This document shows positions 1-46,656 of a stretch of DNA of 64,000 nt, piece by piece (within the stretch, counting starts at the first letter, position 1; every line of letters starts with the position of its first letter). Source of the stretch: Paragonimus westermani (taxonomy: Eukaryota; Platyhelminthes; Trematoda; Plagiorchiida; Troglotrematidae); the NCBI GenBank assembly GCA_008508345.1, contig QNGE01001707.1:73607-137606 (forward strand), in the 5' to 3' direction. Under the pieces are notes generated by a model. That model was not told the origin of the DNA and made no database searches. It worked only from the letters and a program-made list of their open reading frames with translations. The position numbers were made by a program, and so were the translations under genes.

Positions 1-3000
1 GAAGTACTGCCTCGGGGCGCTTCTAAACTTGAACTGCGGATTTTGTACTACAAGGTATCTGAGCGCTGTTCACCGGAGTGAATTGAACACTTCAGTCGAT
101 CATCTGCCTGTTGGTTGGCGATAATAGCACAACAATCTTGTGGAGCGCAGCTATTTTGTTTGCGAGGTTGTCACATACGAGTGATCATTACAATACCTTC
201 TTTTTAGGTCTGATGCAATTCAGCGGTTTTCCGAAATCGATCAGCTCTGGGCATCAGCTGATTACTTGTGATTCGTGTCGCTACTAACAAGCAAACAAAA
301 ATGTTGTACCAAGTCCCCAGTTTTGGTCGACAAGTTTTTCCAGAAAACTGTGTGTAAAAGAGTGACACAAGAACACTCACTAAATTGGTTTAAGAAAATA
401 TCTCATCTGTCAAATATTCCCAACATTTAATGTTCTGTCTTACATTCGCTATTCATTGTCTGATTTATTCCGGTATGCACAGACCTGATTGGTGATGACA
501 ACTAATAAATTCGCGAAATAATGTATACAGTTTTGTAACATACAAGACATCACGTCAAAAAGTTGATTGCTTGGTGTATTTCTCAAGAGTTTCCAGTCAT
601 TAAGTTTACAAGCAAATGTGTCCACATAACGTCTTAACTAGGAACACACAGTGTGTATTGTAAGTCTTTTTGTGTCCTTTAAACTTGTTGAAGTTTTTGT
701 AGGATCAAACACAGTCCTTCAGGAACAGATCTGGTTGTACAGTTGATTCTGACATTTACTTTTTCCGCGTTATAGGCACATAGTTGTGACTAGTTCGAAA
801 CAGAAACTGTCTCCCAGAAAAGCTCAAGCGTGTTTCTTTTTTGGCACTGCAATCTCGGGAAACATTATTTATGTGGATATATGATATACCGAGCATGGCT
901 TCTTGCATAATAACCTACAATCTTGATGTTCACCTATGACAGATAACGAGGTCACATGGGGATTGTTTCACGTGTGTAGATGGACTATCGATCACCCAAG
1001 TGGTTGTGCAATATTTAGTGGCTCCAATTTGCAGCTTCTACCGATCAGTGAATAATCGTAACACGAAATATGAAGAAACGCATGTCGTCAAAAACACTGA
1101 TGCAGCCTAAAAGCAACCGAGCTGAAATGCATAAAGTAAATTGCTTTTAATCAACCAGCTATTGCTGTTTTGTACACAAACGGTTACGAATGGTGTTGAA
1201 TAACTGTAATAGGTTAACGGACAGTAAAGTAACAACGATCCGAACAAACCGTTCACTTCGTTAAGCTAACACTTGTGCGAGTGAATTCCCATGGCAATTC
1301 AAGTCAGATTTAAGCATACGAGGTTAATGTATGAAAATTTTCTACAAACTATTCTGTGTAATTTACTCTGCCGCCCTGTAGTGAATAAACACGTCCAAAT
1401 TCCCGACAGCTGTTTTGTACACCATAACAGTAGGTTTGTTTCTTCACACAGTGTTAATTTTGCGCCATTGTCGTGTTCCATACAGGAAAGTGAATTTTGA
1501 AAGTTATCTAGGTAGAAGCAATTTACCTCTAAGAAAACAGACTCAAAAATTGTTTAATATCATCTGACCTCATTCAATGTTTAACACTTGGTTATTTCAT
1601 TTTGACCGTCTTTCTTGGAAACTCAATTCATTCCTTTATTGAAAGCAACAGAATACTCAAAATGATTTTCTCAGTGTTTTCGATGATACAGCAAATAACG
1701 TTTAGCGCGACTGTCTTTGTAACTCAACGTTTAACTGAAGGAACCTTCTTATAGATTGCTTACCACACGCTGAACTAAGTGACAGTTGTCCATTTCTCCC
1801 AACCATATCTTGCTTTGGTGGTAACTCTCGACGTATCGTTGATTTCATTGTACGGTTGTATTATTGGAGACGAGACTGACAGAATTCAGTAGCCTAAATG
1901 CTCAAACAAGTTTAGTTACAACTGACGATGGACTCAGGTCATTCCATATATATATATATATATACAACAAAAATTAGGTCCGTTTTGTGCGTCCCTTCGG
2001 CTTCACGGTCTAAAAACATCACCTTTCCCTGTTTATCCCAGTCCGTATCTAGCCTTCAAAAGCGTGTGACCAACACAGGTGTTTTTAGGAAAGGTTGGAA
2101 TAAATAAGGGCAGTTTTTCCTTCCTATCAGCTAATTGCTAGAATGACCCAAAATTGACGAAGGTCACGTGGATCAACTTCCCATGGATTATATGAAGGCT
2201 GATTATTAATGCATTGTTCAAAAACATGGATCTGTTCGTTTTGTTTGCCCTTGAACTTGAAAACCATCGGATTATGTGAGCGCCGTGCGTTCAGATTCGC
2301 TTTATTTGACTCCACGGCACGTAACAAGTGTATATCACAGGATTTTGCCTGACTTTAATGAGTCAAATTCATTCAGAATAGTTCTGTTTGTTACATGAAC
2401 TATGGATTTTGATTCAACCAAATACTCTAACATGGTACAAATTGTGTTTGCAGATCGTTGCTATTTGGTAGCAGATGTGAACCTCCTTATTTGACCGAGG
2501 TTCGTGTTCAATAACTGAAGTTACAGTTATTCAATGTGGTATTTCAAAAATACGTGACGGCATTTAGTGATAAGTACGCGTACGCATTTTAAACTGCCGC
2601 TCAAGACAAAGTGGGAGCATACCTGATAAGAATGGCCTAAATGCTGTGACTGATTTCTTGAATCACATGCCCAACAAAATTAAGTTAAAAAAACTCATGG
2701 AAAGTGGTCGAAACAACTTTAAAGACAGAATTTGAGTAACGGAAAATATTGCGGAAATATTACAAAGATTTTATACTAATAACTGTTCGTTGTCGCAAAC
2801 ATCGAACAAAGCCGTTATTTGTATAGCATCTGCCATTTCTGTCGTCTCTGATAGTGGAAAACCGGTAACTTAACAAATACAATTTTCATCTTTGGAATCT
2901 CTACCAACACCCAAAAGGATAGAACATAAAGAATCCAATCTGCTAGAGGCTGGCAAACCCTATTTGAGGACGTCATTTTTTCGAGCAAGGTCTGAATCCA

Positions 3001-3801: not shown

Positions 3802-5560
3802 ATGCTTCCGGTAAACAACGTGAACCTTGTAAGGACTATTAGTTCTCAGATCGAGGCATCCAAAGAAAAATTGGACAAGTTCATCGAGAATCAGCAACGC
3901 TTTGCCAGTTTGCCCAACAACTTATCTTTGGTTTGCTGGGTCAAGTTTGAAAGCTTCATCCGAACTGCACTTCAAGAAACCAAAGCGACGGTATTTCAGA
4001 ACTTGCAAAATTCACTACTTCATAGGCGGATATCAGTTTTTATCACAGACGATTTTGAACACGTACACATTTTTTGGCTACTCACTTTATCAAAGCTCAA
4101 TTGGAGATACTTTCTTTGGATCTAGACTTCAAGATGCCACCGAAACAAGTGAACAAACTACAAACCCAAGTTCAATATGAAAACTTGTATGTGCACGTTA
4201 GGAATCCTGCTTCCACTTCACCAAACAATGTGGATTGGTTTCGTGCAAAGTTGGCTGATACCTCACACAAGTTTCTAACAGCCCCACCACGCCAGTGTTG
4301 TTTTTTGTCTGCAGAACACTATAAAGCCATCAAGGAGCTCAGAGAAATTACTGACTTAGTCTTCCCCAAACCAGACAAGGGCTCTGGCGTCACCATAATA
4401 GAGAAACGGGACTACGTAGCTAAAATGAATCTGGTATTTTCTGAAGCACGGAAATTCCTATCAGATACCACGCATGGTAAAAACTTCCTGGCTGTAAAAC
4501 AGATATCGATGAAACTGCAAATACTGATGCTACATGGGTGTGTTTCGGATATTCGGTAGAATAAACTGAAACCAACAGGCTCACAGACATCGAGGATGAT
4601 AGGTTCACCATAAATCCACAAGACGCGTGTCCCACTACGACCGATATTATTCATGAGCAATTCTGCATACCACAAACTGGCAAGCTGGTTGATGGCATTC
4701 ATTAAACCAGTTCGTGAACTCCTATCCCCCAGCTGTGTCCTCAGTCCCCTTGAGCCATCAGAAATTTCAGAATACAATTCAGCAAATCCACAGACAGTCC
4801 ACAATAAGTCCGCAGACTTTTATTTACTAACGTACTACTGCATGAAAATGTTGAATTTTATGTGATTATATCTCCATTCACAATGTAAATTTAGGTATTC
4901 CATTAAATCTGCTTAAGGATGTCATCTTTGTTTGTACGGAGAACAGTCCGTTGGTATTCGGAGTTGTTAATAGTAAACGGTTTGACGATGTAGCTGTGTG
5001 TAGCCCACTGGGTCCCACTATCCTTCAAAGGCAATTTCAAGAAAGGATTTGGAGGGTTTCGCTTCTCAAACGTTAAGTGGGCGACATTTTAGTTTTTACT
5101 GATAAATGTGGTTTTACCACATTTTATAACTATTTGAACTCCGTCCACACAAGCCTCACTGTATCTTATGAGGTGATGGTTAATAGTTGCTTACTGTTCT
5201 TAGACATTCTTATAACCATACGTCAAGATGGTACATTGCAACGATCCGTTCATCAAGAGCCAACATGAACTGAGCAATATTTGCAGTTTTCCAGTTCCGC
5301 ATCTATTGCTTATGAACTTACGGCTTGCACTATGAATCGATTGTAGAAAGAAGAGTTTACGCTGGTGGATAACGACTATCGTGAAAAGTTTGTGGATATC
5401 CAATTCGTTGAAGATATTGTTACATAATCGCAACCCGAAACTGTTAGCGATTAGTGAGGTGATGCAAAACAACAGTGGTCAGCTTTGTGTGCACAAAAAG
5501 CGCAATCAATCATCTTGCTATGGAATTGATTGCAATATTAGCATGCGAAAGGTCAGACCT
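3802..5560 (+). mobile_element. Penelope-like element (PLE) reverse transcriptase relic
   Basis: This is a decayed Penelope-like reverse transcriptase spread over several frames. The frame 4074-4559 carries the PLE signature KPDKGSGVTIIEKRDYVAKM (about 4362-4430). After a stop the frame changes and shows VPLRPIL (near 4630) and then HKLASWLMAFIKPV, as in the palm of PLE enzymes. Further on, CSPLGPTI (near 5000) matches the SPLGP block. VGDILVFTD (5077-5103) stands where the catalytic YVDD block is expected, with the first aspartate replaced by G. A later DGTLQRSVHQEPT block (near 5230) matches the PLE C-terminal RT region. At least four stops or frameshifts separate these blocks, so no protein can be made. 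The start at 3802 is only the first open frame that looks coding, and the true 5' end is unknown. No intact endonuclease follows it. PLEs are common in trematodes. Confidence 0.75.
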
Positions 5561-12764: not shown

Positions 12765-15700
12765 ACCGCATTTGAATCATTCTACTTAGCGCATGGCTAT
12801 TGTTCTTTCTGTGTAATTCACCGAAGTAACTTATCCGGCAATACTTTGTGTGAATGTTTATGCCTTCACTCGCTATCTGGTTCTATCTGTGCAATATGCA
12901 TAACCTACGTTTTGCGATGGTGATTTAAAAGAGTAAACGAATTGTTGACATCGCAAAATGTCTGTTTTATTGCTGGTCTAGTGACTTTGTGATGTGAGGC
13001 CCAGTGATTCCAATTGAAAAATTTGTCTGCATGAAGTCGTTTCAGATAAACTCATGTCAAGAAAATTTTCCGCAGTAGGTCTTGTGTACACATGACATTT
13101 CAGGAACATAAAGTACGGCTATGTGACTGCAAATCACATGTTGCTGTTAGATGGGAACATTCTGACTGATACACTCCATCTAAGCGAATAGAAACAAATT
13201 AAAGAAAACAAAACACAAAGGAAAGTCTATCTGCTCCACTCGTTGGACGTTTCCGAGAATCTCAGTAATAGTTTAAAGTTGGATTATAAATGAATCAACC
13301 TTTGCCCACTCGACAAAACAGTGACGTTTACGATCCGCAGTTGTTACTCTGCTGATGAGCTTTACGTTATTGATGTTCCAAATGTTGTCTCCATTGGCGC
13401 GTACTGTCGGTTAGATCGAACGGTTCCCAGAAATTGTTGTGGAGATCGTTTGCCAAATTAGGACAGAAAGAAGACAGCACCGTTCCAGTTATTTACTTTG
13501 TATCTGTTTTTATCCTTCTTAATTCACCTTTCTCTCATGCATCACAATGAGTAGAAGTTCTACTTTAATGTCAGGCTTACATTACTGAGAAGGAAGAGAG
13601 TTAAATATTGAAATGTTTTTCGATCAATCATAGTGCACGGTAGAACTCAGTTGTATTTTCCACATTTCAAAACTACGCGGGGGAACAAACTTACAATAAA
13701 TATATTGCTTTTTGAAAAATACCGTCCACTGACTAGCTGAATTTTTCATTCTGTCGTTTACGAAGGTTGAAGTAAAAATATTACTGCCAAATATTGTTTA
13801 TTTGAATTGACTAATTCTAACAGATTCGCTTCACCTACAAGTTTACTGTGGACAACAGAACACCCGCCATGCACAAATTAGATAATTACTGAGTTCCAGC
13901 ACTTCATAACTAGTAGCGAGAGAGCACTAAATATGCAAGGTTGCCTGTCAGTGAGGTTTGAATCGGGGTCATACTCCCTTGTTTTGGAATGGCCTCTCAG
14001 AATAGTTATACACAAGCAGTGCACTTTTGGTTTAAACAACGTCTGCAACGATCACACTAAACTTCCTAAAGGAACTTTTGTTAAGTTTTGTCGTGAATTT
14101 CAGCCAACTGCAAGGACTTCAAGTTATTTTCATTGTATTGATCCATATTTTTCACGAGATCGCCTACAACTTCGTATTTACTCTAATAATTTGTGTGAGT
14201 AGTGGTCGGTGCAAGCAGATAATGAGTAGAAACATTTACTCCCGACTAATATCCGGAAGATGCAAATACACGTGCGAACGCGTTTGAGCGGGCCAGTTAC
14301 TCACACGCATCTGTACTGAGCGTACCTACTGCCTGCTCTCCTGGTTGCCTGATTCATGCTAGTTCATACACTTGACTTTATCCGGACCTACGGAGTTTTT
14401 TGAAGCTAAGACTTATATGTGAAACATTCACCTTTTTAGACTATAACGGTGGAAGACATGTCACGAGGTGCTAACATTTCGTTCACTCTCTTCGGTCACA
14501 AACGTGAAACAAATATATGTATATGTGTATTCTTGCTAACAGCATGTCCGATATATCCTCATGTTTTACGTTCGTGATTGAAAAGAGTGAGCGAAGTGTT
14601 AACATTCCGCTTTATACGTTTCATTTTTCATTGGTGAATTAGAGCCAAGGAACTCATTGGTTTAAATTTCAAACTACGTTTCAATTGTAGGTTAGAATAA
14701 CCTGACGAAAAACTTTAAACCTAGACAGCATGACTAACCAGAAGCAAACTGCAATTTAAAACATTCAATAACACGGTTTTATTCGTAGTCTTTGACTGAC
14801 CTAAGTCACTTCATACATCTCACAACGTATACACCAAAGTGGTAGTGTTATTTATTACGTTTCGGGCTGGTCGTCATCAATGTCCTTTCGGCCTGTCTAA
14901 CTGTACGCCAGAATAATCGTTTTTATATGACCAGTGTCTAAACCTAGATCCCATTTCAACGGAACCATATGAATGTATAAAAAAAATATATGCGTGCCTA
15001 AATTTATCAACTTTGGTTGCATCCATTTTTTGAAATTTTCCAAAGAATTAGCAGAAGCCGACATATTTTGTTGACAAAGGTTTTTGTTACCGTTTATAAC
15101 AAATATTCTCCGTATGGCAAAACGAACATCAGTCACATCTGTTTTTTCCAACTGTCTTCAAATTCACTTTTTCTGTTTAGTTAGAAGTCCAAGTTGTAAG
15201 CTATCCTGTCGTTGGATTTCACCAGGACTATATTTTATTATATGGACTGGAATCTAAACCTAAGTCTCATCTTCTGTCTGACACGCTTGAAAGCAATTGT
15301 TCAAAGACGTGCGTGTCAGACGTTTCCCATATATTTCATAACAACATTTGCTTACAACGTCTTATTTTACCTTGCTGTCATTAACAGAAAAAATAAAGTT
15401 ACGCAGTTCGGAAAACGCAATAAACTCACAAAAGATTTCGTAGCCAACGGTCTCAGTGCACAAATTAACCAGTGTTTCGTTTTTCGCGCGCAACAAATTA
15501 AGTGCAAATGCTGGATGGTTACATCCTTTCTACTCCGGCTTTTTCTTCGAATCTCCGTTTACTTGCTAGGTACTTGCATCTTGATGGGTTAAATTTGAAC
15601 GAAAATTTCTCCCGCGTTGCATCAAAACGACTGACTGACATAGGCAGTATTGACCTATCATTGCTGTTTACTAGTGGTGACATGTAACTTGCGTAATGCT

Positions 15701-16633
15701 GTCGTGTAATACTGCCCAGTAAATCGTATCGATCAAACGTCTATCCAAATCTCGAATCAACAGTTAAACAAATCAATATTTAACCTTCCCATCGCTATTG
15801 CTTTCCACTTCTCAGATACCCCAAAGATAGTCCTTGCTTTCACTGTTTGGCAGCGTCAGTTTGTTTGAAATAACTTTTATCCGTGAAAGGACTGGAGTTG
15901 GGAATTAGTATCATAGTCATCGCAAATCGAGTTGGGAAAGTCAGTAATCACACGGAAGTGAATTTGGAATTCAAGTGACTAAATAACAGGATAACAAGAA
16001 CAACATTCTGACACAACCGAAATTTCATTGTTTAGGCAATAGATAATTTACTTTTAGCAATACTGGAAGACGCAACGAAACGTCATTCTAAAAAAATATT
16101 TTCTTAAACGAAGGTACATACAGACTTCGGTTGGTTTACTGAAAATGTCCAAATCTGTGTTTGAGGCATAACTAACGTATGGAGTGTACACCAACTTAAT
16201 TCAACCTCCACTTCAGCATTTACTTAAAAAGCATTGTCTGTTTATTGATGCAGAACCAGCGAAATACACTTCAGTAATGGTAGACGGCCCAGCGGTCGAT
16301 GATGCTGACGAGAGGTGCTATACGCAATAACTGTGTCCTACTTTGTATGTCAGTAGTGTGTACAGAATTGCCTCAATTCAAGCAGCTTGTTAAGAAACCA
16401 TAATTACGCCAGTGTCAAGGCCTGTTTACTTGCTCATCATTCTACGTTCCCCAAGTGAGTAATATGCTTAAGACTTCGTATCAAAATTTGGGTACACCAG
16501 CATGCTCAACTTCAAGATAATCTTACATGTCGCGTTCTCTATGGGATTCTGCTGAAATACCTTTGAGTTTTAAGATATCCGCACCAAATGTAGTACGAAT
16601 GAAGTTGAATAGTTTGGGCGTCGTGTTTAACAT
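12765..16633. other. non-coding stretch with one ribozyme-like motif
   Basis: No gene recognised. A 54-nt segment at 14840-14893 has a hammerhead-like layout on the minus strand and is listed separately. Confidence 0.45.
14840..14893 (-). repeat. weak hammerhead-like motif
   Basis: On the minus strand the order is TTGATGA, then GACCAGCCC, then GAAACGTA. This resembles the hammerhead layout CTGATGA - stem II - GAAAC, but the first conserved C is T and the stem II pairing is poor. It is probably a degraded relative of the better motifs at 17.1-17.4 kb and 19.9 kb, or a chance resemblance. Confidence 0.3.
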
Positions 16634-16750
16634 GTTATTGATAAACACCTCGGATGGCCTTCCGGAGGAAGGCCACCCGAGGTGGTTGAAACGTAGAGTA
16701 TTACAACTTGCTCGAAACGTTGTGTTATTCCCAATCTGTTTATCAATAAC
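16634..16750. mobile_element. 117-bp MITE-like element with 14-bp terminal inverted repeats and a strong hairpin
   Basis: The outer 14 bases, GTTATTGATAAACA (16634-16647) and TGTTTATCAATAAC (16737-16750), are exact reverse complements. Inside lies a near-perfect hairpin (16646-16684): CACCTCGG, AT, GGCCTTCC, loop GGA, GGAAGGCC, AC, CCGAGGTG, with one mispair in the stem. The right half is homologous to 7500-7575, so it belongs to a dispersed family. No protein is encoded. No clear target-site duplication was found, so the transposition mechanism is open. Confidence 0.7.
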
Positions 16751-17137
16751 TTTGAGTTTTATTTCTTGTCATACGTAGCATTCGTAATCATCAAACAAAA
16801 TGACAGAAAATAAATTTAATTTTTTCCCCCAACTTTCCACTAAACTCTTCTATTCCAGTCACAGTGTTGTTCTAAGGTAACGAAACCAACTCAGTGTAAA
16901 ATCCAACTAGGTGCGCTCATATTATGCAATTTGTTCTAGACAGTAGTTATATAACCTAGAGCCAGACTGCGTTAGTCCATGAAAGCATAATAATTGAGTA
17001 ACCACAAATTGTTTCACTGAACAAGTTTTCGTAAGGATCAAGCAGGTTTCTGATTGTTGGGAACAGTGGTGGTGTTGTTCGTAGCTCGGGTTGATGGTTT
17101 TGGTATTGATATGTTCGCCGAGCTTGGCATTTAGGTT

Positions 17138-17177
17138 GCAAACGTTTCATCACCAAGCGAGGTGACATCATCAGTGC
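17138..17177 (-). ncRNA. hammerhead ribozyme-like motif, best copy
   Basis: Read on the minus strand, the 40 nt give GCA, CTGATGA, T, GTCACC, loop TCGCTT, GGTGAT, GAAAC, GTT, TGC. All conserved core positions of a type I hammerhead are present: CUGAUGA, GAAA, and an NUH cleavage triplet GUU. Stem I would be GCA/UGC (3 bp) and stem II GUCACC/GGUGAU (6 bp with one G-U). One extra U follows the CUGAUGA. Stem III would have no loop in a single molecule, because AAACGTTT is a palindrome, so cleavage would need a dimer. Cleavage activity is inferred only. Confidence 0.45.
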
Positions 17178-17280
17178 GTGAGTGTTTCAGCTCAATTGCG
17201 ACAAAATCAACCAATGGTGGGTCAGGCCAAACACGATAGAAAGCGACCAACCAGAATTCAGACCAGTAGGTCAAACCACT

Positions 17281-17307
17281 CTGCTATATAAGAGCAGGCA
17301 TTGATCC
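17281..17307 (+). promoter_or_regulatory. TATA-like core promoter in the foldback spacer
   Basis: The sequence ctgctatataagagcaggca contains TATATAAG (17285-17292). It lies about 60-70 bp upstream of the ribozyme-like motif of the right arm. This would suit transcription into the right arm, but the position of a start site is only inferred. Confidence 0.35.
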
Positions 17308-17353
17308 AATTTCACTAAACACCACATTCAAGCTTATACGCTGAAACACTCAC

Positions 17354-17393
17354 GCACTGATGATGTCACCTCGCTTGATGATGAAACGTTTGC
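17354..17393 (+). ncRNA. hammerhead ribozyme-like motif
   Basis: Inverted partner of the motif at 17138-17177. The core CTGATGA (17357-17363), GAAAC, GTT and flanking GCA/TGC are unchanged, but the descending side of stem II reads GATGAT instead of GGTGAT, giving five of six pairs. Activity is unproven. Confidence 0.4.
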
Positions 17394-17430
17394 AACCTAA
17401 ATGCCAAGCTCGGCGAACATATCAATATCA

Positions 17431-19532
17431 AGATTAAGCCGGTATTGAAACAGTTAAGTTCACACAACTTGTTATACTTAAATATTATTTTTCGGCTTAG
17501 GTTACCAGAACCTTGGAAACTACTACCTACACCAATGGTTTTCAACGTATTGGTGTCATAACTCTCGTTGCACCACAGAGCGGTCTACACAAGTCAGGCA
17601 GTACTTGGACAGTAGGGCTTTCATATCTAACGCCGTATTCAGTTTGTCAGTTTGCTTGAACAAGTAATTTATCCTGGTGCACCTTTGACTAATTATGAAT
17701 TATTGTTTTTGTTACCATAAACAGTGCAGCTCACAAACTTATTGCATCACGGTTGCAAGTGACGTTCTCAAACCTATCACCTGTCTACATTGCTCACACT
17801 CAACTACGACTGATTTTAACCAATCAGCAAGCAGAATATATAAGTGATCAATACTTGGGGAGGAATGCACTGATTTTCTGGAATGTAGATAGGGAGGAAC
17901 ACTCGCAAACGATTGTCGACGTTAACCAAAGATTGCTTGCCAACTTTCACAAATATGAGCCGATCTTAGTTGACTAAAAAAGCTGCTACTGATTGTGAGC
18001 TAATTTGATGGGCTGGCATGTGCCGTTAAAAATGAACAATCCAAACAATTGGTTCTTTAATGTTTCTTTTCTCCAAGCTTAGAAGAGCAGAAAGATGTAG
18101 CCTGGATTTTCCTCGGACACTAAAGCTTACTAAGCGATTATGTATTGCATTACGTTAAACACTTGAAAGTTCGCAGAATAATTTGCGAATATTTCACGGG
18201 TTTCGCCGTCGAACACACCATGCTCTCTTTTCGTCCTTGTTTGCAGTTATCTAGTAAAGATACCTTTCAATGAGTCTTGACCAGATACCCATTACACTTT
18301 GAACCATATTACACACTGGGGTGTACTGCACCGTCTCTCTGGTTAAGATAGTAGATGAAGTGTCTCAGCCAGCTTCATTAATCTATGTTACACCAATCAA
18401 CGAAAATGATGGAAGATGATTGTCCGTGAAACGTGTTGCTTCCAAAACCAGCGTTGGCAGATTTGGTTTCGGAATGTTTGAACGCCCGTTCAAACTGTGT
18501 TATAGAAGCTTTTTCAGGTCCTAAACCAACACTAGGGTAACTTCACTTGAAGAAATCAAGCTAAGCTCATCTCTGTTGCGTTCCAAGGGCATCCCGGTAC
18601 ACATCTGAGCAAACTTAACAACAAAATATGTTCACGAGCTTAACTTCGGTAAGTTGTGAGAAGGCTACATTCTTTATAGAGATACACCGAGAAGAAATTT
18701 GAGAAATCCAATGTTAATCTCTATTTTTACCTATAGACTTAGCCGTTACTTCAAATATTTGTTACGAAGTCCATTTGGCTATCCAAGTAATGACTCTCTT
18801 TTAAGTCATATGCACATCCTCTTCGTGGCCACCTGGATAGCGAGGTCCACATATCTTCGTAGCCCGGTCGAAGGCTATTGACCTCTTAGAATGTGGTGAC
18901 CTATCCCTAGTATACACAACACACACACACGCATCGTAGAATAAAGCTACCCAACTATCAGGCAAGTTGGACTGAGTACTTTTGGCTTATCTGCCATTCT
19001 ATCTGGTGAACGGGCTCCTGTGCCTTTGAGCACCACTCACTCGGCCTAGTGAGCGATTGTAGCAGCTAACGCCTATCCCTGTTCATTTCGTTGGTAACAG
19101 TTATCTGTCCTAACCAAATTTTGTTAGCATCAGTGTGTAATTCTGTTTTCAAATGAAGTCTGTTTGTTAATAATCCATTTGATCTGACGTCGGTCTCATG
19201 TTAGGATTTAAACATGGCTGTGAAATTCGTCATGGTTGACCAGTTCACAGATTATTCTTAAACCATGTGAGTGTCCAACATGCAACCATGTTCACTATAT
19301 ATGCTTACATTACTAGCTTGAATGCATGAATAATGGGACTGAGCAGGCTTGTGCACTGTACTTGACAGCAATGTTCTTAATGCTTCAACAACATTAAAAG
19401 ATAACAAGAGTAGGGTGATTTGTTTCTGGTTGGACATTATTATGCCCCATTAGGGTATGCACATAGAATGTGCTTTCAGGAAAAAAATCTTTAATCCAAC
19501 TTAAGTTCCGTTCTTGTTTGAGCATGTTACAG
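17431..19532. other. non-coding stretch, no gene recognised
   Basis: Only short open frames. A small AC-rich microsatellite lies near 18910-18930. Nothing else could be assigned. Confidence 0.45.
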
Positions 19533-19559
19533 ATATATATATATATATATATATATATT
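19533..19559. repeat. TA dinucleotide microsatellite
   Basis: A run of alternating A and T, about thirteen units, in AT-rich DNA. Confidence 0.95.
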
Positions 19560-19581
19560 AATCGAAAAATAGGATAGACAC

Positions 19582-19658
19582 TGAGTAGTGAACGATTTAT
19601 TGTGACGTTTCAAATCCACACTAGGATCCGTTATCAAACATATATATATATATATATA
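19582..19658 (-). repeat. hammerhead-like relic next to a TA repeat
   Basis: Positions 19639-19658 are a TA repeat. On the minus strand the following 55 nt read TTGATAA, CGGATCC, tagtgt, GGATTT, GAAACGTC. This is the layout of a hammerhead core with GGATCC/GGATTT as stem II, but two conserved core bases have changed (C3 to T, G8 to A). It is listed as a degraded relative of the foldback motifs or a related repeat. Confidence 0.35.
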
Positions 19659-19853
19659 CTATTCAAGCCACTACCAGGATTTGAATTCCGAACAGGCCTT
19701 TATGAGGCAGTCATGGGACATAATTCAAAATGGTTATTTTCTGAAAGCTCGTCCAAATTCAAAATCTCAGTCGCGCACTACCGATAGTTTCTAAAAAGAA
19801 AAAACCATGGTTCTTTTGGTATTGATATGTTCGCCGAGCTTGGCATTTAGGTT

Positions 19854-19893
19854 GCAAACGTTTCATCACCAAGCGAGGTGACACCATCAGTGC
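19854..19893 (-). ncRNA. hammerhead-like motif with one core change
   Basis: Minus-strand partner in foldback 2. It has the same layout as 17138-17177, with a perfect GTCACC/GGTGAT stem II, but the last base of CTGATGA is G. This position (A9) is conserved in active hammerheads, so this copy is predicted to be inactive. Confidence 0.35.
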
Positions 19894-19941
19894 GTGAGTG
19901 TTCGGGGTATAAAATTATAATAATTATACGCCGAACACTCA

Positions 19942-19981
19942 CGCACTGATGATGTCACCTCGCTTGATGATGAAACGTTTG
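19942..19981 (+). ncRNA. hammerhead ribozyme-like motif
   Basis: CTGATGA (19945-19951), stem II GTCACC with GATGAT (one mispair), GAAAC (19971-19975), GTT, then TGC pairing with GCA (19942-19944). It has the same layout as the right-arm copy in foldback 1. Confidence 0.4.
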
Positions 19982-20078
19982 CAACCCAAATGCCAAGCTC
20001 GGCGAACATATCAATACCAAAACAATCAACCCGAGCTACAAACAACAGCACCACTATTCCCAACCATCAGAAACCACG

Positions 20079-23000
20079 GTTCTAGTGCTTTTTTCGAACG
20101 TTTTTGGCAACACATTTTATAGGAATGAAAAATCCACAACAAATATCGAGTGATTTTCCAGTTATTTCATTTTATCTACGATATAAGCATAATAATGACA
20201 ACCATAATACTGCTGATAAAAAATCATCCTAACGTAAGTGCACCTGTCAGTATCAGTGACCAAATTCTGTTTCAATAGTCTGTGTGTCCTTGAGTTCATC
20301 ATTTTGGATTGTGTATTGTTCGAACAAGTTTTTTTTATAGATTCAGCCGTTAAGTATTAACTTTGTCATTTCATTAGAGCAACGGAAACTAGTGTGTTGT
20401 TTTCAAGTCTACACGTTTTGTGCTTATTATGTCCGCATCTTCATCAATTTCGCCCTTCATAATCTCCTTTAAAAGACCTAGAGGGCGTCACACATCGTTA
20501 GATTCAATAGTGTTAATGGTATTTCATATGTCCTTTGAATACACACTAGGTTAACCACGGAAGTTGATACAGAGTAATGTAAACTTTAAGAAAATCGGGA
20601 CAACCCGACTTATTTCTTAAGGAATATGTTCAGTTTTATCTGTGTATACTCAACAGTGACAGTAGAAAGTAGCTGATTTTGTCCGTTTGTTCACTCAGCA
20701 TATAATGATAACAGGTTTGTTGTTCGAAATGATGACCATCAATTTGTCCAGGAAACTTGTCCATTTTTGTTAATGATCATGTGATATGCCAATATCGGTG
20801 TATTTAAGCCAAAACAACTGACGTATAGTTTCCACTTGACGACCTAGTCTTCAGTGATGCTGAGCATAGTTAGAATTGTTTCTGTTTTTACGCCTTTATA
20901 AGCTTACGGCCACAGAATTGCTAATGATCATATATAGAAATGCATTAAAGTATTAGTAAACAATCGTTCGAGAATGTCCTCGAAACGGATAAATACGTGG
21001 GATGTGCTCTACACCTAGTAGCTTAAGAATTCGAGCTCGTTTTGTTCATCACATAGTCACTCGAATGAACGCTACGCTTGAAATATTTATCAATCAAGTC
21101 AGTTGAAACGTTGCTGATGCTTTGAGCCAGTCGTTAACGATGTCCAGAATGGAATACTTCGCACTATGTGTTTAACTATCTATTTCCTCTAAGATTACCC
21201 AACTTGTTGCAATGCTCAGAGAAAAATTATTCATTTTATAAGATTCTATGAATTCATAAGGTTTCCTTCTATGGCCCTAGTTTCAGTGTACCGGAGAACA
21301 TTTTAAAACTCATCCTTAGTCTTACAACGTATTTCATGAGTCAGACGAAGGTGGATGGTAAAAGACTTCCCGTACGTCGTTAGACTTTCAGAAAAACTAG
21401 TTACTTCACACATAGGACTCACTTTAGAAAAATACCCTCCCACTACATGGTTCATATACTGATATAATGAAATTGTTTTTCAAAAGAACTACTGTTTCTA
21501 CATCCAACTGTCCAACCCTTCACGAAAGCAGAACTGTTACACGTTGCCGCTAATGCGATTAACTGTTTTGATGGTGTCCTAATTTGGTACTATCGAATTG
21601 TAGCAAGGTTTTTGTGCGTAAATGGTCGTGATTAATGTCCAATCAGCCAGCTATACTACAAACTTAAAATGACGATCAATTCGTTTGCATCCAGTTGTTC
21701 ACAATTTGGCAGAGATTTCAACGATTTATTTATTTGCACCCATTGTGCCTTGTGTAAGTCATGAACGTTGTTTCTGTTTATTCGAACATCCCCCTGGGAC
21801 ATCCAAACAAAAAGCTCATTTACTGGTTCACCGGGTTTACGATCCAATGCCTGACCACTTATCTAGCAAGTCCATGTTGGTTTCACGAATGTCATTATCT
21901 TGACAGGATGCTTTCGCAAACTGTCAAAAGGTACCATCAGATCTCTGTGACAGGTTAACTTGTCAGCTGTTTCCTCTGTGTTAACGACCATGGAAGTTGG
22001 TTGGAAAAAATTGAAGGCATAACAAACTCTGGTTCACGGCACATGAGTTTGTACGATAATGAAGTGGGACATTGTGGGAAGATCGTTTCTTCTTCATCTC
22101 AATCGGTTCAGTGACACATTCGTCAGGCAGCTGTTATTGTTATGGCTTATTTCGCACTATCCAACTGAGGGTCAATGTTTGCCGACGGTTAATGTCGAAA
22201 TTTTCTTAATCAGTGCATCTTAAACGAACTTATCGAACTTCGGTGACAATTGGCAAATAACATCAATAATATTAGAAATGCGAGAATGATTTTGCCGCAT
22301 AAACCATAGCGTCAATTAAGGCAACCAGTTTACAAACTGACACTAAAAGTATTTGTTACCTCCTGATCGGCTGCGTTTAAAACTGTACTGATAAAGTGGT
22401 ATGCATGTGAGTTTCGACTATAACACTCCAATTTTTGGCGTTTCAGTTTCCTTTATTTAGGTTATCCTGATGGCTGAAAATTCCTCAAATCTATCCACTA
22501 GAATTGGTTAGCTAGTCGCTTCACTTCACATTATTTCGAAAACACTTTATTAACGCTTGAAGAATTCTCCAGAATGTAAGATGAACTTTATCGGAAAGAC
22601 TGTGATTTTACGTAATACAACTATTATAGTGTAGATGTATCCTAATGTTTAACAGAGCGTATCAGTGAACCTCAGATTATTCTTTGTGTGAAAGTAACCA
22701 TTTACGTTTTCGTAGTTCACTGAGGTCAATGTATTTTACTAGAAAATACTAGTTACTTCGTGTTTGTTAACTCTCACTATCCGAGCGACAAATTGATTTT
22801 TCTTCTTCTGAATGGTTTTCAATTAATCAGCATGTGCTTATTAAAAGTTAATACCATATATTTCATGTAACCGAACCATAAGTAAGCAACATGCTGTTGT
22901 CTCAAAATTCTATGCAGTGATTTGAATATCAATGAAATCAAAATGCATGAAAGTAAACAGCAAAGTATAACTCACCAGATGTCACCTGCCGTGTTTAGAT

Positions 23001-26800: not shown

Positions 26801-27247
26801 TTTCAGTATTTACGAAATTTTTGAACTAAATGTAACTGTTTACTTGTGTGTGCTTCGTGTTAAATGTACTTTCCTTCAAGGCACGTGTTTACTAACGTGA
26901 GCTGAAACTGAAGAAATGAAAGTTTCACCTTATTACAAATGTTACTTTGCTTGATTTTCTGTCGTCTCTGTTAATACAGGCTTTTTAAAATAAATATTTT
27001 TTCTAACGTGGAAAACATCCACACTTGGCCGCAGTCTTCGCCTTCAGATTAATCTTCCGGCTAGCTCACTTTGAAAAAAAGCACTGGACTCAAGTTTTTC
27101 CCTTATTAGAGCCGATTCGTAGTGCATATCCTTGTCTGGATCGGAGTTTTCACTCTGACCATCGTGCTCGTAAGAACAGTGTGTTAACGGCAATGCTTGT
27201 AATCTCGCAATAAGCATGACCGAATAATCAAATTCAAACGCTCAACA
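23896..27247. other. non-coding stretch upstream of the channel exon
   Basis: No gene recognised. If the channel has its first exon in this window it could lie here or further left, but no open frame with a Shaker N-terminus and a donor site could be identified. Confidence 0.4.
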
Positions 27248-27456
27248 ACAGCCTTGTATGAATAGTGTTCAGCTCACTCGATCATACACTTCTGTTACTA
27301 GTCTAACCCAATCTTTATTATTTCAATGAAGACAGTAACCTCAACCTAACTGATAAGTCCTGACCACGGGGTTATCGATTGGATAGAACAAAGTGGTTCT
27401 GTTTATCCTCCTTTCGAAATGATCTGGCAGGCCGAACACTATTCATACAAGGTTGT
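27248..27456. mobile_element. 209-bp inverted-repeat element upstream of the channel exon
   Basis: The left arm (27248-27273) and right arm (27431-27456) are inverted copies with 24 of 26 bases matching; both contain CCTTGTATGAATAGTGTTC. The 157-bp interior is non-coding. The size and arms suggest a small non-autonomous DNA transposon (MITE). No target duplication was identified. It ends about 485 bp before the splice acceptor of the Kv exon. Confidence 0.6.
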
Positions 27457-27924
27457 GCCCATTTTGAGGTTACAGGTATTGTGGTCAGCAAGCTAGTCCC
27501 ACAAACACGAGGATCGGAGTGCAACTTCAAGCTCGACAAACATATGCGTTACTGATTGGTTCTACGAAGAGCAAAACCCGAGTCTAGTGTTTCCTTTCGA
27601 AGTGAGCTAGCTGAAACGCTCACTTGAATGTGAAGACAGCGATTAAGTGTGGATGGTGTTTAATTGAAATACTCCAGATCCCCGAACTTCTACCACTGAT
27701 GAAAAGATTTTGTTTCCTCGATTATTTCCATATACGCCTTTTGTCACTTTCCAGTTGCGTCGAAGTTGTTTCTGAACTACGCTGCCGCATTTACTGCATA
27801 TTTTTGGTCACGTGATCCATTTTTTGACGTTTAAATTAGTTGTTCACGTATTTGGTGGGCACGGTTAACACTATCACTCTGTATCTATTCGGCTGAAACA
27901 ATTTGGATTTGCGTGTACTGTCAC
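27457..27924. other. non-coding stretch between the inverted-repeat element and the splice acceptor
   Basis: Probably the 3' part of the intron before the channel exon. No promoter elements could be supported. Confidence 0.4.
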
Positions 27925-27941
27925 TCTCTTCTTAATTTCAG
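27925..27941 (+). promoter_or_regulatory. splice acceptor of the Kv channel exon
   Basis: A pyrimidine-rich tract, tctcttcttaatttcag, ends in AG at 27940-27941. The open frame runs through this tract back to 27913 without an ATG, so the first ten codons of the frame are better read as intron. The exon would then begin at 27942, on the third base of a codon, so the preceding exon should end with two bases of that codon. Confidence 0.7.
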
Positions 27942-30600
27942 CTCCTATGGTCCCAGACCGTATGGCGGAATGGTTGGATCTGGTGGGGGAAGTACTGGGC
28001 TGAGCACAACTGCAGGGAGCTGTCCCTATAGTCATACCTCCGTTGGCCTGACCCCTCAAACCGTGGTTCAAGATCAGACATCGTGCGCAGCAGTAAACAA
28101 GGGAAGTTTGCCAAATGCAGAGACTGCTGAAACCATCAAGAAACTCCCGGATCAGGGGTATTTGGATCTGATTGCGTCAGCTGCTCAGAATATCGGCCGT
28201 ACTGCACGCGGCACACTTTTATCAGACACACAATTAACATATCTAAATCGGACTGTAGTAACTAATTCAAATGTGGATCTCACAGGTCACCAACTTGAGT
28301 CCAGTAAACAGCTACCCAAGAAAACAACCTCTCCGGCTTCCGAGATGCGACCTGAAAAACTGCCTGCAAAACCGGACCAAATCGGGTGCACCCGGCATAG
28401 TTCTGAGAGGGTAGTACTTAATATATCCGGTCTACGATTTGAAACGCAATCTAGTACTTTGCGAAAGTTTCCGAACACACTGTTAGGGAATCCACTGAAA
28501 CTGGATCGATATTATGATCCTTTGAGAAACGAGTACTTCTTCGACCGTAACCGACCCAGTTTTGATGCCATTCTTTATTACTATCAGAGTGGTGGACGTC
28601 TTCGAAGGCCTGTCAACGTTCCTATTGATGTGTTCACTGAGGAAATACAGTTTTACGAGATTGACGAAGATGCGATTGAGAAGTATCGTGATGATGAAGG
28701 ATTCATTAGGGAGGAGGTGAAAGTACTTCCAGAAAATGAGTTACAACGTAAAATCTGGCTTTTATTCGAATATCCGGAAAGCTCTATGCCAGCAAGAGTT
28801 ATTGCTGTAATTTCCATACTTGTGATAATTCTTTCGATTGTTATATTTTGCATTGAAACACTTCCACACTTTAAACATTACAAGGTTATCACGTTGGAAA
28901 AGTACGAATTATCCATTGTAGAACAGGTGCCCGTTGGCCCGAATATATCGCAAGCTGAAACAGAACTTACCACAACTCTGCCAAATCAGTACGATCAAAA
29001 TGAATTGGAAAATAATCATTGTATGGCCAGTCAGCATCCTTTGGAGTGTTTAGTTATTACTGATGACGATAGTCCTGGAATCGAAGATCCATTTTTCTTG
29101 GTTGAGACCGTGTGTATTGTTTGGTTTACATTTGACTTGTTGGTAAGATTTGCATCCTCGCCTGAAAAACTCGTGTTCTTTCGAAATATCATGAACTTTA
29201 TTGATATTGTAGCCATCATACCTTATTTTATTACCCTGGGTACTATGCTAGCCGAGGCAAGTCGCACTCAGAATCAAGCGATGTCACTGGCCATCCTACG
29301 TGTTATTCGGCTGGTACGCGTATTTCGTATCTTCAAGCTTTCTCGCCATTCCAAGGGATTACAGATTCTTGGTCAGACCCTAAAGGCAAGCACACGTGAA
29401 TTGGGGTTGCTGGTATTTTTTCTCCTCATATGTGTGATTCTTTTTTCGTCTGCAGTCTACTTCGCTGAGATCGACTCAGACCGCACCTATTTTCGAAGCA
29501 TTCCCGATGCATTCTGGTGGGCTGTCGTCACAATGACCACAGTGGGCTATGGGGACATGCGTCCGGTGACTGTTTGGGGTAAGCTGGTTGGTTCATTGTG
29601 TGCAATCGCCGGCGTGCTTACCATTGCTCTGCCAGTCCCTGTGATTGTTTCTAACTTTAACTATTTCTATCACCGAGAGACCGAAACAGAGGATAAACAG
29701 ACTTTCATTCATGTGCAGTCGTGTGCCAGTTACGCTAGTTCCAGTTCCAGTGAATGCGATGCTTCCGATATACAAAAGAAACCCGTGGACGATGTTGAAG
29801 CTACCTTGTGTTCTGCAGTACCTTACTGCCAGGAAGTTGAAACATTGAACGGACCGGATCTTTCTCCAAAACAAATCAGTTACCCAGACCAGCTTAATTC
29901 GTTTGAACCTCTTTTATCCCCTACCAATGAAGCTTATCTACTAGACACTGGTGGTATTTTCCGATCCAGTACTGCAGATGAAGTTTTGAGAAAGTGCTCA
30001 ATGTCGTTTAAATCCAGAAATGACAAGTCTGATTTTCACACCCGTTCACTCGGGTTGAATCCGTCTGATGATATGGACGTTGGGGAATTTTTCTCCCTAT
30101 CACCTCCATTAAAAACGTCACCAACGTCACAGCAAAAGTCGCAAGAACCTTCAGTGAAGATTTTCAGTGAGGAAGATCTAAGCCTTCGATGTAAAAGCAG
30201 CCATGGGCAAGATAGTTTGGGCGACCTCAAGGTTGTGCTTGGAACGAAAGACACGGAAGTATGTTTATCTTCACCTCCCTATGATCATCAGGAATCTAAG
30301 AAATATGCTCGTGTTACACGCAAAACTTGTGGTAATTGTTTATCATGCATAAAAAATACGGCAAAGGAACCTGCCAAACAATTGGAATTATTCACACAAA
30401 ACCAGCTCGCCAGCTCTGACTCGAATCAGCGATTGGAAATGTGTGCTCCTTGTACGAAAGAAATGTCAAGGGTGTATGTTAGTGCTGATCATATAGGTTC
30501 ACCTCGCCGGGGCACATATAAACCCAAATTACCGGCTGCAGGAGGTCTCACCCAGCCGATACCCCGTTATCTTAAATCACCCATGGAAACTGACGTGTGA
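27942..30600 (+). CDS. Kv1 (Shaker): Shaker-type (Kv1) voltage-gated potassium channel, large 3' exon
   Basis: This encodes the pore-forming subunit of a tetrameric voltage-gated K+ channel of the plasma membrane. Residues are numbered from codon 27913. The T1 tetramerisation domain is at about 165-265 ([15 protein letters not shown]). S1 is about 294-316, S2 393-413, S3 424-446. S4 is 459-480 with arginine or lysine at every third position ([18 protein letters not shown]). S5 is 495-519, the pore with selectivity filter TVGYGD is at 543-548, and S6 with PVPV is 574-577. The C-terminus METDV is a class I PDZ ligand as in Shaker. The S1-S2 loop is long, about 75 residues, with an NIS glycosylation site at 344. 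Arginine 550 sits at the external TEA site. The tail (about 590-895) is serine-rich and has CGNCLSC (806) and CAPC (844). The frame has no in-frame ATG before residue 20, and the acceptor before it suggests an upstream exon, so the N-terminus here is incomplete. Family assignment is very strong. Confidence 0.95.
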
Positions 30601-43463: not shown

Positions 43464-46400
43464 TAAGAAATGCTCTGTAATGAGTCTATGGAAGTATGTG
43501 CGATGCATGTAGTTCATGTTTTATTTAACATATATCATGTACTCAGTAGCTAAGTATGGTTTCTTTTGAGCAGGGTACGATGTTCTTCTGGATGTTGACT
43601 CACTTCGTATTCTGTTCGATCCGCGTTGAGCTCTCACTTTTGTTATTTCGAACAGTCACTCGGAACCGTTCGAACATAGAAAACCGCAGGGATTCTTCAC
43701 AACCGTCATCTAAGAGGACTATTGGTTGCTGCAATCGGCGATGCATGCCTACAGTGAGAAACAGTGAGTAATCTTGGACAGGCGTCTTTGAAGACACCAT
43801 GAAGGAGAGTGAGCGATTTTGTGCGATAGTTTTTCACCAGATGTGATATTTTTGCGATACCACGGGTATTAGTAGTTCACCAGACACAAGTGAACCATGT
43901 GGGTGTGAAACGGTTCGCGGTGTGTCAGAATGCTCAGGGGAGCGGGCATCAGAATATGCGACGCTCAAACAGGTAATACCAGAGCTGTTGTTCAGTAATA
44001 TTTCTTCGGTGGCATCTGCACCAAGTGTTGTTAGCTTTTTGGTTGACATACCCCGCGGAGGTTGCGCTGAAGTGACACGTTTTGGAAGCCCGGCATATTT
44101 CCGCTTAATGGATGTCCTTGAACACCAGCGAAATAATGCACCACTACTGAACGCTAACAACACGACGATTCGGCTTCACGCTGGCGGTGTCGTGCCTTTC
44201 AAGCCATATAAGCTAAAATTGCTGCTTGTACTTTATAGAATGGCATGGTCCAGGATGTCCACTGTTTTCAAGGCCGAATTTTGCCGGTCTTAAAAACCGT
44301 AGGACGTCAACTGCCGACGTTACTATTACACGGCGTGACGTCTGCTAACTTTGGAAATGATAAGAACTTGATCAATGACAGTGTCACGCGCGACTCACTT
44401 GCATGGACGTTTGTAAAACGGACGCCTGGGCAAGCTGTCCACGACGGCTGTGATCGGTGCACTCATAGATGTTTATATAGACCGCAAATTTACCCATCAT
44501 CTGAATGGATGTCTCAAGGGTGTCGATGAGTCGTCCAGATATGCCGAGAGACAGAGTTAATCACCATTCCAAATCCACTGAAAACTAGGCTACGTCAATA
44601 TCCTCAGGACTGTGTGCATTCTGTTTGCCCTGGTGCTGTTCAAACAATGGTGCCACTGTGGAAGAGGTCCTTTGCCAAAAGGGCACGCGGATGAAACAAA
44701 ATACGGTTGAAATGGTTAAGTCGTGGCTAACCTGCATAATCCTCCTACTTATCAGTGATTTTCCACAGTTTTTTCAAAGTTTGCAATAATTCAGGAACTT
44801 GAGGACTCGTGAGTGTGGAGAGTTTCTTCCACATATTGGACCTTGTGTATCGAAAAACAGCACACACCCCACGAAGTACTCACATTGTCTTGAGTCGCTC
44901 ACTGTCACCTCTGTTCTAGCTCCTTCCGATTTTTAATGTTGCTCCACTTTGGTATGAAAATTCACGCATGCAAACGGTTGTATACTGCTTTCTGCACGCT
45001 CACGGTGTTCGCAGAGATGACAACGTTCATTCGTCGGCACATATGGAGAACGACAGTGCACAAACTGATGTGTTAGATAAGTGTCAACGCCTTTGTCTGT
45101 GCTCTGTATCTAAAGTTTCGCCGTATAATTTGCTAAGTTGCACTTAAAATAGAAGAAGGAGTATGACATGGCAAAGGAGGTCCACACTGATGGGTTGTCA
45201 AGTTTTGAAATAAACAGATGTCAACGCAAGCAACAGTGGTTGAGTTTAAGTGCAACATATCTTACACATGCCCGCACTACCACAGTCATCACATCGCTTG
45301 GTTGTTGAATCCGCTAGGAAGTTCAACGTGAAAGTTTCTTATTTCCGAATTTTGTATTTGGTTTCGCTTTTTATGGCTTTCTCCTAATTATGCAACCTAA
45401 CCAATAATACTCACCAGTACATACTGTTTTGCAGTTTAGAGGGCATTGAATAAAAAATCGGCTTTTATTTTGCGTGTCTCACAGCAAGCAATATTTTTTT
45501 CTATCTGGTGCATCAAAGAGAATTGTGTGGTGAACGAAAGAAATACCCTGACAGCAACTTTGGTTATGGTATTCAGAAATATACAATTGTGTTCGGAAGT
45601 GTGCTTAGCTCTAACCCACAGCTAGTTTATACGCAGTTGTGATTACGCATCACGTTAGCGAACGAAATCGAAATATAATTTGCATTTGTAGAACGCAAAT
45701 ACTCCTGCTACGAAACAAAAATAGCACACAATATTCAGTTATAAATTACAAATGCAACAGTCAACCATTCGCACCGATCTATAACATTTATTTAGCATTG
45801 GGCAACCGGGTTGGTTCCCTGTGCCATATTTCTGTTGTTGATTATGACTGCTGTAGATGAGGCATGTAGCTACTTATTTTGCATATTCTGCTGGTTACCA
45901 AGCAATACCCTATAATCCTTGATCAATCTCGTTCTACATTCGATGGCTGTTATCCGTCTGCGCGTTGCTGGAATACGGCCTGGTTTTGGCAGTCTGGACA
46001 AAGCGCGCTTCACATGATGGTTCACGTTAACAGTGTGAGCCAAACAAACTTTCAATGTTGCAGACTTTATGGAACCGTTGCTGATTTTTGTGTGTCAGCG
46101 GACAATCCACATTGTGCCTCCTCAGTGTTGGTAACCTTGGGGATCAGTTAAATGATGCTCTGCTCTCTGATATAACTTGCGAATGTGCTCATTTTCATCG
46201 GTGTTCGGTTTGACCGCTATTCCACTATAAGACATACTGAGTAAAACATTAATGTGCACGCACTGTTTGACTGTGTATTTCGTTGTCTCATTTCAAGAGA
46301 TACACAGTCGTATTTGCCAAAAGGAACTTATTAAAAGTTTCGGATCTGGTCTCAACGAAGGTACAATTACTAATAAGTAGTGTGGCGAATTTATGATTTT
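43464..46400. other. non-coding stretch, no gene recognised
   Basis: A 123-codon open frame at 43922-44293 (+) is antisense to a 109-codon frame, and neither resembles a known family. No repeat boundary was seen. Confidence 0.4.
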
Positions 46401-46656
46401 AGATGAGACCCAACTGTGAAAAGTCAGGGCTTCGGCTGGATTCGAACCAGCGACAGACACAGCATGCCTCAACGCGGCAAGCGCTCTACCAGCTGAGCTA
46501 CGGAACCACACCGGGAGCTCGGAACTTTCACATTTGGACTCTGTTACCCACCCGTCCCACTGTCTCATATGGAATCCACCAAATGATTCAGGGGATCGAC
46601 TGCCCCTGACTTTTCACAGTTGAGTNGCGCTGACTTTTCACAGTTGGGTCTCATCT
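46401..46656 (-). mobile_element. tRNA-derived element bounded by 27-bp inverted repeats
   Basis: The left end 46401-46427 and right end 46630-46656 are exact inverted copies (agatgagacccaactgtgaa and its complement). A further partial copy of the right arm lies at 46603-46625, followed by an ambiguous base (N at 46626), so the right end may be duplicated. A tRNA-like unit lies against the left arm. This looks like a SINE or a non-autonomous element that has captured a pol III promoter. No protein is encoded. Confidence 0.6.
46428..46507 (-). tRNA. tRNA-like sequence (pseudo-tRNA or SINE head)
   Basis: On the minus strand the 80 nt begin GGTTCCG and end CGAAGCC, giving a 7-bp acceptor stem with one mismatch and one G-U. 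The D arm is GCTC/GAGC with loop AGCTGGTA. The T arm is perfect (GCTGG, TTCGAAT, CCAGC). The A box (TAGCTCAGCTGG) and B box (GGTTCGAATCC) match the pol III consensus. The anticodon arm is irregular: loop GCGTTGA, no U33, a T-T mispair, and a longer variable region. If read literally the anticodon would be GTT. The missing U33 and the flanking inverted repeats favour a tRNA-derived repeat over a working tRNA gene. Confidence 0.55.

Follow-up and report, generated by a model that had tools for sequence, protein, structure and literature searches.

A 64,000-nt stretch of DNA from the lung fluke Paragonimus westermani (contig QNGE01001707.1, positions 73,607 to 137,606 of the forward strand; hereafter the window) contains two foldback insertions, E1 and E2, which lie 2.4 kb apart and carry in each arm a block resembling the core of a hammerhead ribozyme. 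Do these foldbacks represent a new type of self-cleaving mobile element, as an earlier note on this DNA had proposed, or are they remnants of a kind already known? Based on the anatomy of the two foldbacks, we consider it likely that the machinery of a Penelope-like element (PLE) produced E1 and E2 in independent insertion events and that each consists of a solo pair of head-to-head pseudo-long terminal repeats (pLTRs), with the hammerhead carried along as a part of the template. The earlier observation was confirmed in part, and its interpretation is partly supported.

Layout and ends of the foldbacks

When set in one direction, E1 and E2 display an identical layout and have both ends in common (Table 1). 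The arms of E1 (17100-17191 and 17340-17431) are 92 nt each, are 98% complementary and flank a spacer of 148 nt. The arms of E2 (19808-19912 and 19924-20028) are 94% complementary, flank a spacer of 11 nt and measure 105 nt as extended by the tool, a length that takes in some flanking sequence. In both foldbacks the arms are arranged as head-to-head inverted terminal repeats, as in a solo inverted pLTR pair of a PLE. The unlike junctions suggest that each pair was formed anew.

An extra segment of approximately 52 nt was observed outside one arm only, to the left of E1 and to the right of E2. This one-sided tail, another feature of solo inverted pLTR pairs, is thus seen in both copies, and its composition is unusual: only 0.46% of all 52-mers in the window, on either strand, attain even 73% A+C, as compared to 79-81% in the tails. 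Comparison of the flanks suggests that both elements are probably bordered by short target-site duplications (TSDs), as is also characteristic of such pairs. The match in E2 (12/13) was equalled by none of 5,000 random window pairs and that in E1 (10/12), which is the weaker of the two, by 18 of 5,000. The first bases of the right TSD of E2 and the last bases of the left TSD of E1 may be part of the element's own end.

The spacer of E1 contains a TATA box at 17285, from which both hammerhead-like blocks of this element face away, as had been noted earlier. The pattern TATATA-18..24-TCACT occurs a single time in the window, with both strands scanned, and this occurrence is in the E1 spacer. It corresponds to the promoter motif of a rotifer PLE, a TATA box and TCACT 20 bp apart within the pLTR, and was found in E1 only, the respective stretch being absent from E2.

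Table 1. Positions of the features of E1 and E2 in the window
Feature	Position	Strand	Description
E1	17048..17431	-	Order on - strand: no-tail arm', 148-nt spacer, arm, tail; probable head-to-head pLTR pair of a PLE
E1 left TSD (probable)	17036..17047	+	GATCAAGCAGGT; 10/12 identical to right copy
E1 A+C-rich tail	17045..17097	-	79% A+C; one arm only; final 3 bases shared with TSD
Hammerhead-like block, E1 tail arm	17138..17177	-	Sole block in which the core and the six pairs of stem II are complete
ATGATG, E1 tail arm	17166..17171	-	Open frame MMSPRLVMKRLQPKCQARRTYQYQNHQPELRTTPPLFPTIRN; putative PLE ORF start
TATA box	17285..17292	+	TATATAAG; E1 spacer, faces no-tail arm
Initiator-like TCACT	17312..17316	+	19 nt downstream of TATATAAG
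Hammerhead-like block, E1 no-tail arm	17354..17393	+	C.A mismatch in stem II
E1 right TSD (probable)	17432..17443	+	GATTAAGCCGGT
E2 left TSD (probable)	19802..19814	+	AAACCATGGTTCT; 12/13 identical to right copy
E2	19815..20070	+	Order: no-tail arm', 11-nt spacer, arm, tail; probable head-to-head pLTR pair, junction palindromic
Hammerhead-like block, E2 no-tail arm	19854..19893	-	CUGAUGG, A9 lost
Hammerhead-like block, E2 tail arm	19943..19982	+	C.A mismatch in stem II
ATGATG (two successive AUG codons), E2 hammerhead core	19949..19954	+	Frame open to element end, MMSPRLMMKRLQPK...; putative PLE ORF start
E2 A+C-rich tail	20022..20073	+	81% A+C; one arm only; final 3 bases shared with TSD
E2 right TSD (probable)	20071..20083	+	AAACCACGGTTCT

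A foldback or miniature inverted-repeat (MITE-type) DNA transposon, for example one resembling Mutator-like elements (MULEs), would also be consistent with the long inverted repeats and with the probable duplications, which measure about 8-13 bp; the resemblance to a hammerhead would then be accidental. Such an origin agrees with the lack of an Rfam hammerhead match in the window (see below). However, the two outermost ends of either copy do not form an inverted repeat, since the 52-nt tail is confined to one side, and the hammerhead, the AUG codon, the A+C-rich end and the spacing of TATA and TCACT all fit PLEs. We therefore regard a DNA transposon as unlikely.

A close counterpart of the layout was found among published PLE insertions, here as elsewhere in this text compared on the basis of excerpts of the cited papers. 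In the Penelope elements of the rotifer Adineta vaga (Pen2a_Av and kin), an open reading frame (ORF) between pLTRs is completed by an adjacent inverted pLTR, one inverted pLTR optionally has a 31-bp tail, and TSDs of 9, 10 and 8 bp were reported for three insertions, while others had none (PMC3846280). The rotifer pLTR takes in the first 12 codons of the ORF, or 22 with the tail, and has a TATA box 20 bp ahead of TCACT; palindromes at inverted junctions and solo pLTRs have also been described (PMC3846280). E1 and E2 share with these elements the head-to-head inverted repeats, the one-sided tail, the probable short TSDs, the spacing of TATA and TCACT (E1), the palindromic junction (E2) and, putatively, the ORF start inside the pLTR. 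They differ in that the A. vaga elements are mostly whole or truncated elements with an ORF between the pLTRs, whereas E1 and E2 are without an ORF, and in the length of the tail (31 bp versus approximately 52). The connection to PLE terminal repeats drawn in the earlier note is borne out by this anatomical match; its remark that the arrangement had not been described in this form is not, given that published PLE insertions offer parallels for the head-to-head arrangement, for the tail on a single arm, for the promoter and for the TSDs (PMC3846280).

The hammerhead-like blocks

Each foldback contains two hammerhead-like blocks in opposite orientation, and all four are directed outward from their spacer. 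The fourth is located at 19943-19982, one base beyond the interval 19942-19981 given for it originally. A CTGATGA motif had been attributed to all four, but it is present in three only, with CUGAUGG in 19854-19893 (-), and the complete motif is intact in a single block. The intact block, 17138-17177 (-), reads GCA-CUGAUGA-U-GUCACC-UCGCUU-GGUGAU-GAA-ACGU-U-UGC and has, as reported at the outset, the full core, with six pairs in stem II and three in stem I. In the two blocks on the + strand (17354-17393 and 19943-19982), a C.A mismatch in stem II leaves four contiguous pairs. Every block has the extra U that follows A9 ahead of stem II, which had also been pointed out. The composition of the minimal PLE-type hammerhead (a CUGANGA...GAAA core with stems I and II but lacking a helix III loop) is fully represented in one of the four.

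Hammerheads of this minimal form are already known from PLEs, and the sequences in E1 and E2 fall within the known kind as a decaying example of it. The pLTRs of PLEs contain minimal type I hammerheads that usually are without non-conserved helix III nucleotides and that may cut as dimers (PMC7761336, PMC6155905), in agreement with the earlier statement that stem III could be closed only between two molecules. E1 and E2 likewise have type I cores without non-conserved helix III nucleotides, for which action as dimers is possible and cleavage putative. The extra U sets them off from the minimal PLE hammerheads. Such minimal forms were reportedly treated by Cervera and de la Pena in 2014 and by Lunse et al. 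in 2017, according to papers that cite them, and an extra nucleotide in a viroid hammerhead core is said, by its title, to be the subject of a study by de la Pena and Flores from 2001. Among flukes, the Smalpha repeat and the W-element of Schistosoma mansoni have type I hammerheads with a very short stem III, some copies of which are damaged (PMC8490949). Compared by description, E1 and E2 resemble these in having a type I hammerhead in fluke repeats, but Smalpha and the W-element are satellite-like or SINE-like (short interspersed element-like) repeats, whereas E1 and E2 are head-to-head pairs of putative pLTRs. No report of a PLE-type minimal hammerhead or of the PLE tail in Paragonimus was found in a literature search judged on titles and the openings of abstracts.

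The motif is rare by chance, which counts in favor of a PLE origin. A descriptor of the motif that calls for 4 bp or more in stem II identified three sites in the window, and 0 of 150 dinucleotide shuffles contained it; when 3 bp were allowed, the form with a palindromic stem III was present in 2 of 150 shuffles. In 120 Mb of first-order Markov sequence, the number of matches was 7, 4, 2 and 2 when the minimum length of stem II was set to 3, 4, 5 and 6 bp, respectively, which corresponds to 0.0037, 0.0021, 0.0011 and 0.0011 per 64 kb. Since the descriptor was composed post hoc, when the motif had already been seen, these figures are biased toward the motif. Viral contigs and prokaryote genomes, when scanned for the exact pattern, yielded 0 matches.

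The earlier note had proposed to check whether the core is more conserved than its flanks. Of the 87 columns common to the four arms, 4 are variable, and 2 of these are within the 40-nt block, one of them at the essential A9; thus, the core is no better kept than the flanks and no enrichment was seen among the four arms. One of the variable sites, arm column 34 in stem II (17153, 17378, 19869 and 19967), has G in both - arms and A in both + arms when read in the hammerhead direction. This split follows the strand and not the tail, which is on the - arm in E1 and on the + arm in E2, and is possibly due to chance.

The proposal made in the earlier note was that of a propagating, non-autonomous and bidirectional foldback, the arms of which are transcribed outward from the spacer into RNA that is processed by dimeric hammerheads. 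The outward direction of the blocks and the TATA box in E1 are consistent with this idea, and non-autonomous retrozymes bearing hammerheads occur in animals (PMC7229834). Moreover, a dimeric hammerhead could be computed for the block in the tail arm of E1, with an energy of -18.1 kcal/mol. However, the best dimer fold of that block has -26.1 kcal/mol, and the blocks on the + strand reach just -0.9 kcal/mol as dimeric hammerheads, as compared to -12.7 kcal/mol for their best dimer fold; these energies leave out tertiary contacts and protein assistance. Furthermore, TATATA-TCACT is directed at one arm only, and the reverse initiator ACATT of the rotifer type was not seen by eye on the other strand of E1 in the 40 nt past the TATA box. 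A transcript from the E1 promoter would contain the core with a broken stem II. Nor are the ends of the elements at the cut site, and three of the four blocks are damaged. We rejected a propagating foldback because the spacers of E1 and E2 are unlike, so that no common unit is seen, and consider this proposal quite unlikely.

Folding of the whole pairs also speaks against the bidirectional foldback. The complete transcripts form a long hairpin with a duplex of approximately 100 bp (-172.3 kcal/mol for E2 and -210.1 kcal/mol for E1), which hides both hammerhead-like cores, whereas single arms fold with -20.6 to -29.0 kcal/mol. A hairpin-RNA or microRNA-type locus, with the inverted repeat being retained for its double-stranded RNA, was also considered, and the Rfam family MIR6140 matches E2 with 91.7 bits. 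This score is below the cut-off of 140 for the family, for which reason a microRNA gene was rejected, and the several further microRNA families that match the E2 hairpin below their cut-offs are to be expected of any long hairpin. As the two insertions, each with its own duplications, resemble mobile DNA, we find a locus of this type highly improbable.

Putative start codon and proposed origin of the ends

In both E1 and E2, the frame that begins with ATGATG remains open to the end of the element. Counted from the first base of the second ATG, the predicted cut is at 28 nt. The distance from the second ATG to the element end is 119 nt in E2 and 121 nt in E1, and from the first ATG 122 and 124 nt, respectively, by arithmetic on the coordinates and counted to the last base ahead of the shared duplication. 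The untailed end is approximately 70 nt from the second ATG.

These distances are similar to those described for PAc, a PLE of the Poseidon type from the anole Anolis carolinensis (PMC11167929). In PAc, the ORF begins at stem II of the hammerhead, with the cut 26 bp past the start codon. Reverse transcription starts internally, and the site used most frequently is an AC-rich stem-loop at 111-118 bp of the ORF (PMC11167929). Cleavage and extension take place on both target strands, the tail being the stretch between two such start sites (PMC11167929). The PAc hammerhead cut only when its protein was added, and cutting was dispensable for insertion in vitro (PMC11167929). E1 and E2 are similar to PAc in the location of the hammerhead at the putative junction of pLTR and ORF, with the putative start codon at the core and stem II. 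The predicted cut after the start codon is at 28 nt instead of 26 bp, and the ends at 119-124 nt compare with 111-118 bp for the AC-rich start site. PAc is, however, a whole and active element, the core of which is known here by description, whereas E1 and E2 are junction fragments alone and have the extra U after A9.

The layout, the ends, the motifs and their decay are seen in the sequence itself, whereas a PLE origin, the steps of reverse transcription outlined here and any cleavage in the past are inferences. Each arm would be a copy of the pLTR/ORF junction, comprising the end of the 5' leader and the minimal hammerhead without helix III, with the start codon of the ORF inside it, and would continue into the reading frame for approximately 70 nt (no tail) or 120 nt (tail). 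The PLE protein would cut both strands of the target, and reverse transcription would be initiated internally on the template RNA, at a pair of sites that lie within or ahead of the A+C-rich stretch, to give the tailed and the untailed end. Joined head to head, the two products would form an inverted repeat with a target duplication on either side. The hammerhead would have been included passively as a part of the template; with one of four blocks intact it is mostly decayed, and it is not required to account for the structure. Copying from both cut ends and self-priming on an antisense template would both be suitable routes, and the data decide for neither; the latter is preferred for such structures by the authors of the rotifer study (PMC3846280).

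A PLE reverse-transcriptase relic in the window also counts for a PLE origin of E1 and E2. It consists of a broken ORF at 4092-5397 (+) that was recovered as two tblastn pieces (E 1.8e-27 and 5.6e-9), and the sole relative found, P0121, is 28% identical across 73% of the scored region. Of the three PLE relics listed in the earlier note, this one is confirmed; a second, a GIY-YIG-endonuclease-like fragment at 12629-12510 (-), is weak (E 0.18), and the third was not confirmed. A regular-expression search for PLE words returned six ORF pieces, only two of which, at 4059 and 4614, are convincing.

Several results weigh against a PLE origin of E1 and E2. Firstly, no PLE coding sequence is present between the arms of either element, which means that the assignment is founded on anatomy and not on sequence homology. 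An ORF with reverse transcriptase and GIY-YIG, as in a complete PLE, was not found there and, with spacers of merely 148 and 11 nt, E1 and E2 were not classed as complete PLEs. The tail of approximately 52 nt is longer than the 30-40 reported for PLEs. Secondly, the search with covariance models that had been proposed as a check came out negative: the Rfam hammerhead models gave no match at E<=5 over 14000-23000, which includes all four blocks, none at E<=10 over 17126-17190, which includes one block, and none at the gathering score anywhere in the window. Membership in the canonical hammerhead family was rejected on these grounds. Thirdly, the lengths and offsets of the TSDs were picked once the flanks had been seen, and a shorter TSD in E1 (7/9 matches) is not significant, with 378 of 5,000 random pairs doing as well. 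Similarly, the looser pattern TATAWA-15..25-TCACT is found five times in the window. Finally, no homologue of the 44-residue frame start was identified among proteins of about 300-960 amino acids sharing exact 5-residue words, and 42 open codons are expected by chance in an estimated 1 in 8 cases, from (61/64)^42. The frames of E1 and E2 differ by four amino-acid-changing and three silent substitutions, as counted by eye, so coding constraint is not evident.

The overlap of the start codon with the hammerhead core is the one feature that we single out as notable. In CUGAUG-AUG, the second codon uses A9 and the extra U, and sister transcripts paired via ACGU could conceivably cut each other 28 nt into the frame. 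Removal of the start codon would then switch the RNA from translation to template, with the intact block 17138-17177 as a live example of a core that is without description for PLEs in the excerpts of the literature considered here. We hold such a switch to be improbable.

A PLE origin of E1 and E2 would mean that a lung fluke has both a minimal hammerhead of the PLE type and the tail signature of PLEs. If this is confirmed, the anatomy alone backs the idea that the ends of PLEs correspond to two positions within the RNA from which reverse transcription starts. A hammerhead-like core in a foldback can thus be what is left of the end of a retroelement, and does not have to indicate a new ribozyme element.

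Other features of the window

A degenerate and old foldback at 27016-27655 has arms of 133 nt that are 71% complementary and an inner inverted repeat of 38 nt. It was rejected as a third related foldback, since it has no hammerhead core and only short matches to the arms of E1 and E2 (best 16/18). It is located just 5' of a Shaker potassium-channel ORF at 27835-30600 (stop to stop). With a query from 28000, the two best matches to this ORF were proteins of P. westermani (92% identity over 100% of the query and 100% over 87%), and P. heterotremus and P. kellicotti ranked next, which marks the window as lung-fluke DNA of P. westermani or of something very close. The Rfam potassium-channel RNA-editing signal K_chan_RES was identified within it at 29542-29655 (99.4 bits).

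A hairpin at 14452-14618 matches plant microRNA families below their cut-offs (MIR1023, 42.1 bits versus 90). The left arm of a 33-nt inverted repeat at 46398-46659 overlaps the end of a tRNA-Asn (GTT) gene at 46427-46507 (-). An integrase core domain at 61419-62441 (-) and a reverse transcriptase domain at 53394-53807 (+) probably belong to retrotransposons of the long terminal repeat type.

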